NCBI GenBank assembly: GCA_945874765.1
Contig: CAMCHQ010000007.1
Span: 62,001-126,000, forward strand
DNA length: 64,000 nucleotides
Reading direction: 5' to 3'
Source of the DNA: an uncultured Clostridia bacterium
GTDB lineage: Bacteria; Bacillota; Clostridia; Oscillospirales; Acutalibacteraceae
Below, one piece after another: positions 938 through 62,570 of this stretch. Within the stretch, counting starts at the first letter, position 1. Every line of letters begins with the position of its first letter. The notes beneath the pieces were generated by a model, which worked only from the letters and a program-made list of their open reading frames with translations, was not told the origin of the DNA and searched no databases. The position numbers and the translations under genes were made by a program.

Positions 938-1005
938 AAACGGCGCAACAATAGTACGGACTTTTAAATCATTGCTTTCCCTTGCCCAAAAGCTGAATTT
1001 AAATT

Positions 1006-1147
1006 TGCGGCAGGTCTCCCGACTTATGATATAGCTAAGCGTGAAAAATCGCCTTCTCGGTTTCCCAATGGCTGATGATTTTCCTTCATCAAATACGGTA
1101 ATGGCTGTTGCTTGGGATTCTGACCCAATTCCCTTTTAATTTCTCGC
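1006..1147 (-). promoter_or_regulatory. Cobalamin (B12) riboswitch aptamer
   Basis: Read on the minus strand the segment shows the conserved landmarks of the adenosylcobalamin aptamer in order: GGGAAT/GGTCAGAATCCC near 1112-1131, GCCATTACCGT near 1094-1106, the GCCATTGGGAAACCGAGAAGG core near 1053-1075, and the 3' B12 box GTCGGGAGACCTGCC near 1009-1023. It sits between hpt and the DUF4430 gene and points at the latter. High corrinoid should reduce expression (family knowledge). Confidence 0.93.
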
Positions 1148-1187
1148 AAAGGAGAAAACCGTCTTTTATTTAATTATATATAATTTA

Positions 1188-27921: not shown

Positions 27922-27940
27922 TTATATAATTTATTTAACT

Positions 27941-28026
27941 TAATAAGTCAGGGGTGCTTTGATTTTTCAAGGCTGAGATTATACCCTTCTAACCTGTTTG
28001 ATAATGCAAGCGTAGGAAGACGGAAG
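27941..28026 (+). promoter_or_regulatory. TPP riboswitch
   Basis: Contains the thi-box landmarks in order: GGGGTGC (27951), GGCTGAGAT with ATACCC (27971-27985), AACCTG (27991) and ATAATGCAAGCGTAGGAAG (28001-28019). It lies 84 bases before thiT. It should reduce thiT expression when thiamine pyrophosphate is plentiful. Confidence 0.95.
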
Positions 28027-28041
28027 ATTTTATAAATATCG

Positions 28042-41375: not shown

Positions 41376-42770
41376 TCAACCGACGATATGCATTGTTTGG
41401 ATTAAAAATACCCACGCAAGACCGTAATAAATAACAACTGCAACCAAGTCATTGACAGTCGTGATAAGCGGACCGGAAGCTACGGCGGGGTCAACTTTAA
41501 TCTTTTTAAAGAATATCGGCACAAGAGTTCCGACAAGACTTGAAACAATCATTGCAAGAAGAAGCGATACCCCGACGCAAAGCGAAATCAAAAATGCGTG
41601 TTTAATATCATATCCCTTATAAAGGAAAACATACAAACCAAGGAATATTACCGCTAAAATACCGAGCAAAAAGCCGTTGCTGAAACCGACCTTCGCCTCT
41701 TTAAACACTAATTTCAGCTTATCCTTAGGTGTCAGCTCTTCATCCATTAAAACACGAATTGTAACGGCAAGCGACTGCGTTCCGACATTGCCTGCCATAT
41801 CGAGAATAAGCGACTGAAAGCAAATGACAATCGGCAAAATCGCAACAACATTTTCAAATGCACCGACTACTGCGGAAACGCCCATACCCAAAACAAGAAG
41901 AATTACAAGCCAAGGCAAACGCTTTTTGATACTCTGCGCTGTTGTTTCCTGCAAATCCTCCTCGGCAGTCAAACCGGCAAGCTTAGCATAGTCCTCACCC
42001 ATCTCATCATCAACCGCCTCAACAACGTCCTGAGCCGTGATGATACCTATAATTTCGTTGTTTCTGTTTAAAACCGGCAACGAATCTTCGGCGTAATCCT
42101 TGATTTTTTCAATACTTTCGGATATTTTTTCATCGGCATAAAAATAAGGATAAGAATAAATAATTATGGAATCAAGCGTGTCACTCTGCCTTGCTATAAT
42201 CAAATCTTTCAAATCAATGGCACCGCTGAATTTTCCGTTTTCGTCAACAACATAAATGGTGGAAATATTGTCATTATCCCCTGCCTGCCTAATAAGCTCG
42301 TGCATAGCCCCACGAATATCAAGCGTTTTTGAAATGCAAATATAATTAGTTGTAATTAAACTGCCGACTTCGTCCTCGTCATAAGAATTGATAAGCTGAA
42401 TATCCGCCTTAACGTCATCATCAAGACTTGCACGAAGTTTTTCTTTAACACTGTCATCAACCTTTTCAAGCAAATCGGCAGCGTCGTCGGAATCCATTTC
42501 GTTAATGATATCGGCAAGTTTTTCAACACCAAGCTCGTTAATATACTGCTGCGGCTCTTCAACATAAGAGAGAATTTCAGAAACCCATTCGTCGCCCAAA
42601 ATATCATAAAGTGACAAACGTTCTTCTTTGGTTAAATATTCCAAGCTTTGCGCTATATCGTTTGCATGGTAGTCATCAAGCTTTTCTAATAATTTGTCTT
42701 TATCCAAATTGCTTCTGATAACAGAAACAATCTCATCAATAAGCTTATTTGCTTTTAAATCAAATTCCAT
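41376..42770 (-). CDS. mgtE: Magnesium transporter MgtE
   Basis: Magnesium-gated channel of 464 residues. Residues about 15-135 form the MgtE N domain (helical, LEYLTKEERLSLYDIL), about 140-265 hold two CBS domains (TNYICISKTLDIRGAMHEL; VLNRNNEIIGIITAQDVVE), and about 290-464 hold five helices with the pore motif (LDMAGNVGTQSLAVTIRVL, about 325). It takes up Mg2+ and closes at high internal Mg2+. The start at 42770 has GGAGG 5 bases before it. It is preceded by a leader of about 215 bases with a small ORF and hairpins. Confidence 0.94.
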   Translation of the reverse strand: MEFDLKANKLIDEIVSVIRSNLDKDKLLEKLDDYHANDIAQSLEYLTKEERLSLYDILGDEWVSEILSYVEEPQQYINELGVEKLADIINEMDSDDAADLLEKVDDSVKEKLRASLDDDVKADIQLINSYDEDEVGSLITTNYICISKTLDIRGAMHELIRQAGDNDNISTIYVVDENGKFSGAIDLKDLIIARQSDTLDSIIIYSYPYFYADEKISESIEKIKDYAEDSLPVLNRNNEIIGIITAQDVVEAVDDEMGEDYAKLAGLTAEEDLQETTAQSIKKRLPWLVILLVLGMGVSAVVGAFENVVAILPIVICFQSLILDMAGNVGTQSLAVTIRVLMDEELTPKDKLKLVFKEAKVGFSNGFLLGILAVIFLGLYVFLYKGYDIKHAFLISLCVGVSLLLAMIVSSLVGTLVPIFFKKIKVDPAVASGPLITTVNDLVAVVIYYGLAWVFLIQTMHIVG

Positions 42771-43018
42771 TTCAGCCTCCGTTCTCCCAAAAATGGGTAT
42801 AAAAAATCCATCGTGCAAAATACACAATCAATTAAATAGTTGTGACATTCTCCTACGATGGAAAGGCTTAAATATATTAAAGCGAAATCATAAAGACATT
42901 TGCAATTTTCAAATCCTGCCCATCGCCAAAGATACTTCGATTATCACAACTGTCCATATATTTCGCCTCCTTATTTCTAAATCTGCAAAGATTATAGCAC
43001 CAAAAAACAATTTGTCTA
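42771..43018 (-). promoter_or_regulatory. mgtE leader: promoter, small ORF and competing hairpins
   Basis: Promoter on the minus strand: TAGACA (43013-43018), 16 bases, TATAAT (42991-42996). The transcript then carries a 26-codon ORF (42957 to 42877). A helix between AAATATAT (next to the ORF start) and ATATATTT (3' of the ORF) would enclose it. Downstream, CCATCGT (42855-42861) can pair with ACGATGG (42808-42814), with an inner CACAA/TTGTG stem, followed by ATTTTTTA: a terminator. AGTTGTGA inside the ORF is complementary to TCACAACT in the terminator's inner arm, so the two folds exclude each other. It does not match the M-box (ykoK) consensus as I know it. Confidence 0.65.
42877..42957 (-). 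CDS. 26-residue leader peptide upstream of mgtE
   Basis: ATG 42957, TAA 42877-42879. The peptide starts MDSCDNRSIFGDGQDL and ends NVFMISL. AAGGAGG lies 8 bases before the ATG, a near-perfect ribosome site and better than that of most genes in this window, which argues that it is translated. Its codons 3-5 (AGTTGTGA) are complementary to the arm of the downstream terminator. A regulatory rather than enzymatic role is likely. No stretch of a single amino acid suggests a classic amino acid attenuator. Confidence 0.6.
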   Translation of the reverse strand: MDSCDNRSIFGDGQDLKIANVFMISL

Positions 43019-43052: not shown

Positions 43053-43868
43053 CTACACACGCATTGCCCACAAATTATTAATTTGAGACGATATATCATC
43101 AAAATCCCACAGCTTATTTGAATTTTCAAAACTGTTCGGATCGTTAATTTTTATCTTGCCGTCCTCTATACCCGTCATTACGATAAAATGACCTTTTTTG
43201 GTGAAATCCCCCGGTCCCATTATGCAAACAACAGGGTTGCCAACCTCAAGATTATTAATCACTCTTTGTTTGTCAAGCGGAAGCTCGGTTGAATCAATGC
43301 CGAGCTTTTCTGCACCCTCACTCATAAGTGTCCAAAGCGAACCGCCGCCGTCAACACAATAGCCGTTTTTATCTGCCCAATCAATCATATAATCGGGTGA
43401 ATATTTCGTATCATGCAAAAGATAAACCGCCACCATTGAAAGACAGGTAGGTCCGCAAGCTGTCAAACCTGCCACGTCGTCGCCGTAAATTTTATAACCC
43501 CACCTGATATCCCATTGCATAAAAAGAGGAACACTCGTGCAGTTTTTGTACTCTTTCATATTAATTTTGAAATCCTTGTCCTTATATTTAGGATAATTGA
43601 GCACAAATTCCTTTGTCTCCTTATTTCTTTCAAGCATATCGACAAGGCTTTGGGGATAATCGTCCGATGTGTATCCGTTTTCATTCGCATAATCTTCAAT
43701 CATTTTTTTAGCTGAAATGTTTTTGTCCTCATCACTTATCTCGCCCGAACCCGAATAAGCCACCCTATTGTCATCAATCGACCTTTGCGCAATTGAAACA
43801 GCCGAAATTAATAATACTATTATCATCACAAAGCTGAACATTAATTTTGATATTTTCTTCCTTACCAT
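43053..43868 (-). CDS. C39-family (papain-like) peptidase, secreted or membrane anchored
   Basis: Protein of 271 residues. One N-terminal membrane helix or signal (KLMFSFVMIIVLLISAVSIA, about 8-27), a helical region, and a peptidase C39-like domain from about 125: QWDIRWGYKIYGDD, LTACGPTCLSMVAVYLL (catalytic Cys) and KKGHFIVMTGIEDGKIKINDP (catalytic His, about 228). The family includes bacteriocin leader peptidases, but this is the free-standing C39_2 type often in exported proteins of unknown substrate. The start at 43868 has AAAGGAGG 9 bases upstream, inside a terminator-like hairpin. Confidence 0.86.
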   Translation of the reverse strand: MVRKKISKLMFSFVMIIVLLISAVSIAQRSIDDNRVAYSGSGEISDEDKNISAKKMIEDYANENGYTSDDYPQSLVDMLERNKETKEFVLNYPKYKDKDFKINMKEYKNCTSVPLFMQWDIRWGYKIYGDDVAGLTACGPTCLSMVAVYLLHDTKYSPDYMIDWADKNGYCVDGGGSLWTLMSEGAEKLGIDSTELPLDKQRVINNLEVGNPVVCIMGPGDFTKKGHFIVMTGIEDGKIKINDPNSFENSNKLWDFDDISSQINNLWAMRV

Positions 43869-43913
43869 AAATAAAAACCTCCTTTGACTTATTAAAATAT
43901 AAATCAAAAGAGG
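43869..43913 (-). terminator. Terminator of the glucosidase gene carrying the SD of the C39 peptidase gene
   Basis: On the minus strand 43900-43913 (CCTCTTTTGATTTA) pairs with 43878-43891 (TAAGTCAAAGGAGG): 14 pairs with two G-U, 8-base loop, followed by TTTTTATTT and then the ATG. AAAGGAGG in the 3' arm is the ribosome site. Same design as at 908-937 and 22233-22269. Confidence 0.8.
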
Positions 43914-43951
43914 ATTTTTTGCTTTAATATTAACTTTCAAAATTCTTAAGA

Positions 43952-45863: not shown

Positions 45864-47174
45864 TTATTTCATTTTATTAAGAAGAGCATAATCCTTTGCA
45901 TTGATTACGCTGTCTTTTGTAACGTCAAGATACGAGCTGTACTTTTCGTCACCTTTCTTTGAGTTGACTGCGTTAATAAAGCTTAAAGTAAATGTGTCAC
46001 CGCAAACGGAGCACTTAACTGTTGCCGTATCACCTGAGAAAGATGAAAGGCTGTATGTATGAGCGTCCTTCCAATTAGCATAAATGCTCTTATCCTCGGT
46101 TACGTTGTCAAGCGAATCGCTCCACGTGTCAAGCGCCTTGCACTGCGGCGGATTTTTAATTTCAGGTGCAGTTACCGACTGACCGTCATTTGCAAAACCT
46201 CTACCGATAAGCGAAGTATGCTCACTGTCGGTATAAAAATCGACCTGATGGAAATCTCTTGAAACGGTAACGTCAACCTTCATATTTTCGCTTCCTGCAA
46301 GCTTGGTATTACAATAGTAAACAATACCGCTGTCAATCTCATTCACATTATAAGCAACAAAGCTTTCAAAATTGAAGCCTGAGCCGTCGCCGTAATCTTC
46401 AAGTGTGCTTGAAACGTAATTTGACGGGTCGAGACCGTGATTAGTAAACGGAATGAGAATTGTTGAGCCTTGGAATGTTGCTTTAAGGCTGACTGTTTGA
46501 TTACCTATCATCGCATTTGTTATATCTTTAAGAAGAGTATTTTTGCTCAAATCAAGCGAAGTCAAATGATTGTATGTGCAATTAAGCGTTTGAAGCTTTG
46601 TATTTGCAGTAAGGTCAATATTTGAAAGCTCGTTTTGATAGCATATCAATTTTTGAAGATTAGTAACCAATGATAAATCAAGACTTGTTATTTTGTTTGA
46701 ATGACAGTCAAGATTTAACAGTGAACTTGATATAAGATTAATCGTTGTAAGCTGATTTCTCGCACAGTTAAGTGTTTGAAGCTTATTGTTATTAGTCAAA
46801 TCAAGAGTTTGAAGTTTATTGCCCTGACAGGTAAGGTCTGTCAAATTTTTAAGCGCCGATACGTCAAGCTCTTCAAGCTTAATATTACCTACACGAAGTT
46901 TTTCAACACTTGTGAAATATTCAATGCCTTTAAGAGTTTTAATATCATTATTTGAAAGAGAAATGATTGTTACGTTTCTCTCCTCCGGGCTTAAATATCC
47001 GTTGTGGTCTGTATCATATTTTTCAGATACGTATGTTCTGAAATTTGCGTCTGTGAAATTTGCCTCGTTAATCTCAACATTATCATCGGCATAGGCCACG
47101 GCTGCCGAAAGGCAGCCTGTAGCCAAAACTGTTGCAAGAAGCACAGATAAACATTTTTTAATCCTTTTATTCAT
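45864..47174 (-). CDS. Secreted leucine-rich repeat protein with dockerin-like end
   Basis: Protein of 436 residues. Signal peptide (about 1-29, LATGCLSAAVAYA), an EF-hand-like calcium segment (FRTYVSEKYDTDHNGYLSPEERN, residues about 45-67), eight or so short leucine-rich repeats of the form L-x-x-L-x-C-x-x-N-x-L (about 85-215), a beta-rich InlB-like region, a CxxC pair (VKCSVCGDTF), and at the end one dockerin-like repeat YSSYLDVTKDSVINAKDYALLNKM (about 410-434). Dockerins bind cohesins on a scaffold; only half of the usual duplicated repeat is clear, so binding is uncertain. Second gene of a transcript with the giant protein, 12 bases after its stop. Confidence 0.86.
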   Translation of the reverse strand: MNKRIKKCLSVLLATVLATGCLSAAVAYADDNVEINEANFTDANFRTYVSEKYDTDHNGYLSPEERNVTIISLSNNDIKTLKGIEYFTSVEKLRVGNIKLEELDVSALKNLTDLTCQGNKLQTLDLTNNNKLQTLNCARNQLTTINLISSSLLNLDCHSNKITSLDLSLVTNLQKLICYQNELSNIDLTANTKLQTLNCTYNHLTSLDLSKNTLLKDITNAMIGNQTVSLKATFQGSTILIPFTNHGLDPSNYVSSTLEDYGDGSGFNFESFVAYNVNEIDSGIVYYCNTKLAGSENMKVDVTVSRDFHQVDFYTDSEHTSLIGRGFANDGQSVTAPEIKNPPQCKALDTWSDSLDNVTEDKSIYANWKDAHTYSLSSFSGDTATVKCSVCGDTFTLSFINAVNSKKGDEKYSSYLDVTKDSVINAKDYALLNKMK

Positions 47175-62420: not shown

Positions 62421-62456
62421 GATTATAGATTTTTGAAAAATCAAATAAAATATTTC

Positions 62457-62570
62457 AGGGCGAGGTGCAATTCCTCACCGGCAGTAAAGTCTGCGAACCG
62501 CCACGGCGGCCGAAACGGTGAAATTCCGTTACCGACGGTTAAAGTCCGGATGAGAGAAATGTTTAGGCAA
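62457..62570 (+). promoter_or_regulatory. FMN riboswitch (RFN element)
   Basis: The RFN landmarks appear in order: AGGGCGAGGTGCAATTCC (about 62457-62474), CACCGGCAGTAAAGTCTGCGA, CCGCCACGGCGG region, CCGTTACCGACGGTTAAAGTCCGGATGAGAGA (to about 62557; quoted in pieces: CCGACGGTTAAAGTCCGGAT). It controls the riboflavin uptake gene below. Confidence 0.96.

Follow-up and report, generated by a model that had tools for sequence, protein, structure and literature searches.

A conserved small ORF with a near-invariant CGA codon in the mgtE leader of Clostridia, a candidate ribosome-controlled attenuator

In Bacillus subtilis, the gene of the Mg2+ transporter MgtE is governed by the M-box (RF00380), in which a leader terminator controls the gene (this element is also cited in PMC3641672). 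In the mgtA leader of Salmonella and E. coli, the decoding speed of codons in the leader ORF MgtL sets transcription, slow translation turning the gene on, and the conserved Pro codons of this ORF answer to Mg2+ through TrmD (both according to the parts of PMC6335274 used here). In Salmonella mgtQ, Asp2 and Glu5 are needed for MgtB in low Mg2+ (from the parts used of PMC8092293). Here, we describe an mgtE leader from Clostridia which we think is rather probably an attenuator controlled by the ribosome, in which a hold-up or loss of the ribosome at or before a conserved CGA codon, presumably at low Mg2+, would turn mgtE on. No description of such an mgtE leader was found in the literature covered by our search, outside of which lay most subscription journals, bioRxiv and supplements; PMC2965389 contains no occurrence of mgtE, magnesium or Mg2+.

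The gene lies in a window of 64,000 nucleotides (the whole stretch of DNA that was analysed) from an uncultured Clostridia bacterium, and the features below are on the minus strand unless stated otherwise. It spans 464 codons (41376..42770, ATG at 42770), with its own ribosome site GGAGG at 42780-42776, and its product scores 290.3 bits against TIGR00400 (cutoff 232.75) and carries the domains MgtE, MgtE_N and CBS. The leader ahead of it is 220 bases long. The preliminary description of this DNA could not find the conserved motifs of the M-box, and the search with the Rfam model RF00380 is indeed empty for the leader and for the whole genome; the controls B. subtilis and L. lactis (2 of the 14 control genomes) do give a match. 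The model finds nothing either in the 34 loci scanned among 83 related mgtE loci, or in the 6 scanned among 28 paralogous ones. At the gathering score, 0 Rfam families match the leader, and the strongest sub-threshold matches are eukaryotic snoRNAs, so that neither the M-box nor another Rfam family was retained as the identity of the leader. The missing M-box does not reflect a general lack of riboswitches, since an FMN riboswitch (62447-62565, plus strand), a cobalamin riboswitch (992-1178, minus strand) and a TPP riboswitch (27940-28035, plus strand) occur in the window, all above the gathering score. The genome also has a second mgtE, 27% identical (L002, C2:117884-119212), with no M-box in the scanned locus and no leader motif.

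The architecture of the leader is well supported. It begins with a predicted sigma-70-type promoter, TAGACA-16-TATAAT (42991..43018, with the -35 at 43018-43013 and the -10 at 42996-42991), which matches the consensus at 11 of 12 positions and carries a TG ahead of the -10 that makes it an extended -10; the scan for promoter-like sites found 4, vs a mean of 2.9 in shuffles. Then comes the Shine-Dalgarno sequence AAGGAGG (42966..42972) of an ORF of 26 codons, MDSCDNRSIFGDGQDLKIANVFMISL followed by a stop (42877..42957), the peptide of which matches 0 families of Pfam and NCBIfam at E values up to 10. Its codon 7 is a CGA arginine codon (42937..42939), which the comparison of leaders designates as a conserved candidate for a control codon. 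Directly ahead of mgtE lies an intrinsic terminator, predicted at -21.5 kcal/mol, the outer arms of which are CCATCGT (segment b', 42855..42861) and ACGATGG (segment b'', 42808..42814), the inner strands being segment a', TCACAACT (42838..42845), and TTGTGTA (42821..42827), and which ends in a U-tract of six T (42801..42806). The consensus terminator scan, restricted to loops of 3-8 bases, lists 0 terminators at this leader. The promoter, the 26-codon ORF with its strong ribosome site and the terminator had all been pointed out in the preliminary description, and all of them are present. As for the neighborhood, the product of the gene directly upstream of the leader (43053-43940, minus strand) has 295 residues, and we take its CGPTCLSM segment to be reminiscent of a cysteine-peptidase (C39-like) fold. 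Further on, the gene 45864-47174 (minus strand) adjoins that of a 2180-residue protein and encodes a 436-residue protein with DVTKDSVINAKDYALLNKMK at its C end; we presume the product to be leucine-rich-repeat-like and DVTKDSVINAKDYALLNKMK to be one dockerin-like stretch.

Two segments of the ORF can pair with the 5' arm of this terminator. Segment A, AGTTGTGA (42944..42951, codons 3-5), the complementarity of which to TCACAACT had already been noticed, is retained in the 7 closest leaders (alignment A1). Segment B, GCGATGG (42920..42926), had gone unnoticed; it complements the CCATCGT of the terminator, and it starts 13 nt past the first base of the CGA. Together, A and B would form a two-part antiterminator: in comparison with shuffled ORFs, the pairing of the ORF with the 5' arm, at -25.4 kcal/mol, has a z of -4.53 and a p of 0.003, and that with the 3' arm gives p 0.478. 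As b' has either B or b'' as its partner, and a' either A or the inner 3' strand, the terminator and antiterminator folds are predicted to be mutually exclusive, and b'' competes with B for b' with p 0.020 in the window leader. A second helix that had been proposed to enclose the ORF survives in part: an enclosing helix is predicted, but its exact pairing differs, GGCGAAAUAUAU being mainly paired with AUGAUUUCGCUU at the end of the ORF in the best fold.

The small ORF is not a particularity of the window. We considered 83 related mgtE loci, which comprise the best 80 of 411 relatives, 2 close ones in the genus of the window (L003 and L004) and the window's own, and we looked within 650 bases upstream for an ORF with a ribosome site, Asp2 and the Arg of the motif that follows. 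Such an ORF was found at 39 of the 83 loci, against 3 of 83 on the opposite strand, 54 of 1660 shuffled upstream regions (3.3%) and 0 of the 28 paralogous mgtE loci. Looser versions, chosen by eye (e.g., V-T/A-N-G/S-D-S-x-G...R or MEDSSSRS), are found at 20 further loci, and 24 of the 83 loci have no leader by either criterion. The carriers include Ruminococcus bromii, Eubacterium ramulus, Butyribacter intestini, Angelakisella massiliensis (L036, L038, L047 and L056, respectively) and Blautia species (L061, L062, L065). Asp5 is present in 49 of 59 leaders and Asp2 in 47 of 59, although Asp2 was partly a selection criterion. A short ORF with a ribosome site, kept in relatives, is what one expects of a leader-peptide attenuator, and the conservation of both the ORF and the pairing segments bears out the point on which the preliminary description had staked its reading.

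The comparison of genomes also ties this ORF family to mgtE. In a blind test, a codon-specific DNA pattern that ignores mgtE was run over 299 genomes belonging to a single family of this class, probably the Lachnospiraceae. It matched 17 genomes, with 1 match of the reversed-pattern control seen (G529), and all 17 matches sit 214-739 nt upstream of an mgtE match. The exact shorter pattern, over 345 genomes of the order, gave 2 matches, the window's own and that of L135, which also precedes an mgtE (56% identity over 154 residues). The strict 30-base pattern with two mismatches allowed was discarded at the scale of the class (391 genomes): 3 of its matches, in 6 genomes, precede mgtE, the 3 others lie inside or beside other genes, and the reversed-pattern matches (3 seen, in G284, G390 and G391) are nearly as many as the true ones.

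In 43 of 45 leaders, the motif Arg that the pattern selects is encoded by CGA, and in the two others (L056 and L074) the pattern selected a later Arg, a CGA being present at codon 9. Since 14 of these 45 leaders were fetched with a pattern containing CGA, it is worth considering separately the 31 that were recognised by the peptide pattern alone: the motif has CGA in 31 of 31. Yet CGA makes up only 4.7% of the 615 Arg codons in the 45 leader-bearing mgtE genes, and 1.7% of the 462 Arg codons in 36 window ORFs of at least 200 codons, taken mechanically. The surrounding codons are free to vary in the 45 leaders, as the Asp2 codon is GAC in 29 and GAT in 16, the Gly before the Arg is written with each of the four Gly codons, and different codons follow the CGA (the Ser codon AGT in 32). 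We also considered CGAAGT as the arm of a helix and rejected it, as none of 62 downstream regions contains ACTTCG and only 1 contains ACTTC, and as the codon after CGA varies. The comparison of leaders makes of CGA a near-invariant, conserved candidate control codon.

Five of the looser leaders lack CGA (L064, L067, L076, L091 and L108). L108 has CAA in its place, L064 and L067 have AGA followed by the Pro codon CCA, and in L076 the Pro codon CCG replaces CGA, so that a Pro codon stands at or beside the CGA position in three leaders that amount to only two independent cases. As Pro is the codon by which Salmonella MgtL senses Mg2+, control codons may have been exchanged here. Among CGA leaders, a Pro is found within codons 2-12 in 5 of 59, and the window's is not one of them. 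The tRNA scan of the genome gave 41 matches, and, with about nine long ones without loci left out of the reading, the tRNA-Arg anticodons are TCT, CCT, CCG and ACG; CGA therefore presumably depends on the ACG (inosine) tRNA.

We then come to the pairing that follows this codon. Because the pairing segments hardly vary among the closest leaders (A1) and the distant leaders cannot be aligned, pairing was assessed against shuffled sequences. From 57 leaders, 11 near-identical ones were dropped by hand; a script found a terminator at or below -9 kcal/mol in 28 of the remaining 46 and none in the other 18. With the terminator 5' arm, the pairing of the real ORF is better than that of shuffled ORFs in 17 of these 28 leaders (p<0.05; Fisher 4e-14), compared with 2 of 28 for the 3' arm (Fisher 0.34). 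A second test took 59 leaders, with no terminator required and the region downstream of the ORF as the target, and was repeated on 29 leaders dereplicated at 70% identity (60% identity was useless, because the gapped alignment then leaves only 3 clusters). Downstream pairing at p<=0.05 is shown by the 30 nt after the CGA in 23 of 59 leaders (Fisher 7e-19; dereplicated 9 of 29, 2e-7), the 36 others remaining below significance. The codons up to the CGA show it in 5 of 59 (Fisher 0.012; dereplicated 2 of 29, 0.32), the following 30 nt in 5 of 59 (0.14; dereplicated 2 of 29, 0.071) and the upstream control in 1 of 59 (0.73; dereplicated 1 of 29, 0.7). Segment A, which lies ahead of the CGA, was accordingly weak as a family-wide switch (5 of 59, dereplicated 2 of 29) and was not retained as such. 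For 19 of the 59 leaders, the best helix begins 10-13 nt past the first base of the CGA, where 300 rounds of the null gave a mean of 3.4 and at most 9; after dereplication, it does so for 9 of 29 (null mean 1.9, maximum 6). Given the size of the ribosome footprint, this 10-13 nt start is about where a ribosome that has CGA in the A site would have its leading edge.

In those 23 of 59 leaders, the partner of the stretch after CGA is either the 5' arm of the terminator or a strand able to hide the ribosome site of mgtE. Among the 29 leaders where B/b' has p<=0.1, 19 have a terminator-like strand competing with B for b', 6 have the competitor at the mgtE ribosome site, and the remaining 4 have one of neither kind; the competition for b' itself reaches p<=0.05 in 14 of 29, including the ribosome-site cases L061, L113 and L118. 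In these three, the b' strand pairs with the region of the mgtE ribosome site (AGGATGAGAA, AGGATGAGA and AGGATAAGGAG, respectively), and they may represent a translational version of the switch. A terminator or a hidden ribosome site before the gene is accompanied by an alternative helix between the ORF and the 5' arm, as in an attenuator.

The sequences of B and b' change from one lineage to another: GCGATGG/CCATCGT, TGCGGTGG/CCACCGCA, GGGCAATGG/CCATTGCCC, TGCGGCAC/GTGCCGCA and AACAGTGTTTT/AAAGCACTGTT. The reading frame over B differs as well (AAC GAT GGA in L033, ACG ATG GAT in L135), and B is therefore conserved as RNA and not as peptide. This bears on whether the ORF could be incidental, the leader being an unrecognised metal riboswitch or a protein-bound RNA. 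The fold of the whole leader is stable (-65.2 kcal/mol, z -4.83, equalled by 0 of 200 shuffles) and conserved among the closest relatives, as one would expect of such an RNA; against this, the Rfam search is empty at the gathering score with snoRNAs of eukaryotes as best sub-threshold matches, the 5' part is kept as a peptide and a codon with synonymous change, and the 3' part is kept as a pairing of differing sequences and not as one aptamer, which makes this explanation very improbable in our eyes. With no M-box, a conserved ORF and pairing, and exclusive folds, the best reading is that of a translated small ORF choosing between the folds. This choice had been proposed in the preliminary description, the part to be amended being that the family-wide segment is the stretch right after the CGA, and not AGTTGTGA.

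In the attenuator that we favor, the small ORF would be translated from its strong ribosome site, and its first codons would yield an acidic peptide (Asp2, Asp5) ending at the rare CGA. A ribosome held or lost at or before the CGA would leave B available to the terminator's 5' arm, and their pairing would allow the transcription of mgtE; a ribosome that decodes the CGA and advances would cover B, and the terminator would close and switch mgtE off. In L061, L113 and L118, which have no clear terminator, the same strand would pair with the mgtE ribosome site and the output would be translational. The RNA polymerase of B. subtilis is said to move faster than the ribosomes, which would weaken an attenuation run by the ribosome.

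We approached the polarity of the switch with a crude equilibrium calculation, in which the stretch occupied by a ribosome is blocked and the remainder is folded. Of the 37 leaders, 29 are variable, and for these the terminator has a mean probability of 0.43-0.57 when the P site is 8 to 3 codons ahead of the CGA, 0.86 at the CGA, 0.86-0.92 up to 4 codons beyond, and it is down to 0.52 by 15 codons past the CGA. On average, then, a ribosome that has decoded the CGA would close the terminator. The opposite polarity should also be weighed: in the same attenuator, a stall at high Mg2+ would cover A and B and lead to termination, and at low Mg2+ a run to the end of the ORF would open a 5' hairpin and let A and B pair, turning mgtE on. 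The window leader lends itself to this. Its terminator probability is 0.60 for a ribosome at the start codon and 0.33-0.56 only for positions on codons 1-3; it is near 1 from codon 4 to codon 19 (0.97-0.98 when CGA occupies the A or P site) and near 0 over codons 21-26, reaching 0.00 at the stop codon, where A.a' plus B.b' come close to 1. When no ribosome is placed on it, the 5' hairpin is formed and the terminator prevails (0.98). L133 and L053 also drop to 0.00 once the ribosome reaches the stop codon. Over the 37 leaders, however, the mean is 0.54 with the ribosome on the stop codon vs 0.36 on the start codon, and the opposite polarity moreover needs segment A, which has little family-wide support, and a Mg2+-dependent arrest peptide, of which we know none. 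We therefore deem it unlikely, while the folding model of the window's own leader fits the preferred polarity only in part and does not place the switch at the CGA. The preferred polarity, in which hold-up or loss means on, is in line with the average over the family and with the position of B, as well as with MgtQ and MgtL, both of which are turned on by a slow or aborted translation at low Mg2+.

As to the signal, low Mg2+ would presumably cause the hold-up or loss through the acidic start of the peptide, through the poor reading of CGA by the inosine tRNA, or through both. The constraint rests on a decoding event, and the set of Arg anticodons (TCT, CCT, CCG, ACG) presumably leaves CGA to one inosine tRNA. 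It can thus be asked whether the leader responds to a general translation stress, to the supply of arginyl-tRNA (ICG) or to its modification, rather than to Mg2+ itself, mgtE being then induced because Mg2+ protects ribosomes. Some leader uORFs do sense ribosome-targeting antibiotics (abstract of PMC12121999). But in a sensor of starvation one would expect several copies of the codon and a tolerance for other Arg codons, when a single CGA is the rule here, and the blind matches lie upstream of mgtE in 17 of 17 cases; we would give such a signal a still smaller chance than the opposite polarity. Coming back to a leader that answers to Mg2+, a more specific and more speculative version, which we find possible without counting on it, is that the single CGA, read only through the weak inosine-adenine wobble, would be the Mg2+ sensor: together with the acidic nascent peptide, it would make the ribosome pause or drop off under Mg2+ scarcity, and the RNA lying immediately in front of the paused ribosome would reopen mgtE. 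This sensor would have arisen in gut Clostridia independently of the Pro-codon leader of Salmonella, replacing the M-box. Against a simple slow codon, translation of lacZ in B. subtilis was not slowed by four CGA codons (from the parts used of PMC10454642), so that CGA is not slow in all Firmicutes.

Such a leader suggests how gut Clostridia devoid of M-box could control their Mg2+ import, and would be a Gram-positive counterpart to the ribosome sensors MgtL and MgtQ. With one peptide motif, one codon and one switch strand, it would make a minimal system for studying how the ribosome senses Mg2+, and it offers a handle to annotate a small-ORF family that Pfam, NCBIfam and Rfam have missed in the members tested.

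Compared with the known systems, the leader shares with the M-box of B. subtilis the gene family and the leader terminator, but has no RF00380 match, be it in the leader or in the genome. With the tandem attenuators MgtM/MgtP of Salmonella mgtCBR, it has in common that the leader ORFs decide which stem-loops form ahead of the genes for Mg2+ transport; however, the signals there are ATP and proline (as given in the parts used of PMC3641672), and we saw no sequence likeness to the mgtE leader. The MgtQ uORF of mgtCBRU is likewise a short ORF with acidic residues 2 and 5, ahead of a transporter gene freed in low Mg2+, and here Asp2 and Asp5 occupy these positions (47 and 49 of 59 leaders, Asp2 partly by selection); MgtQ is however intergenic and acts on translation (as far as the parts used of PMC8092293 go), whereas ours is a 5' leader with a terminator in the window, plus the CGA and segment B. 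MgtL resembles it as a leader ORF with conserved codons ahead of a Mg2+ transporter gene, but its Pro codons are read by m1G37 tRNAs and its termination depends on Rho (in the parts used of PMC6335274), whereas here we find a single CGA, an intrinsic terminator, MgtE and clostridial hosts, and Pro codons in only 5 of 59 CGA leaders and not in the window's. The mgtE leader is probably a variant of leader-peptide attenuation, and is neither a member of the M-box family nor, with its intrinsic terminator and no conserved Pro, an MgtL.
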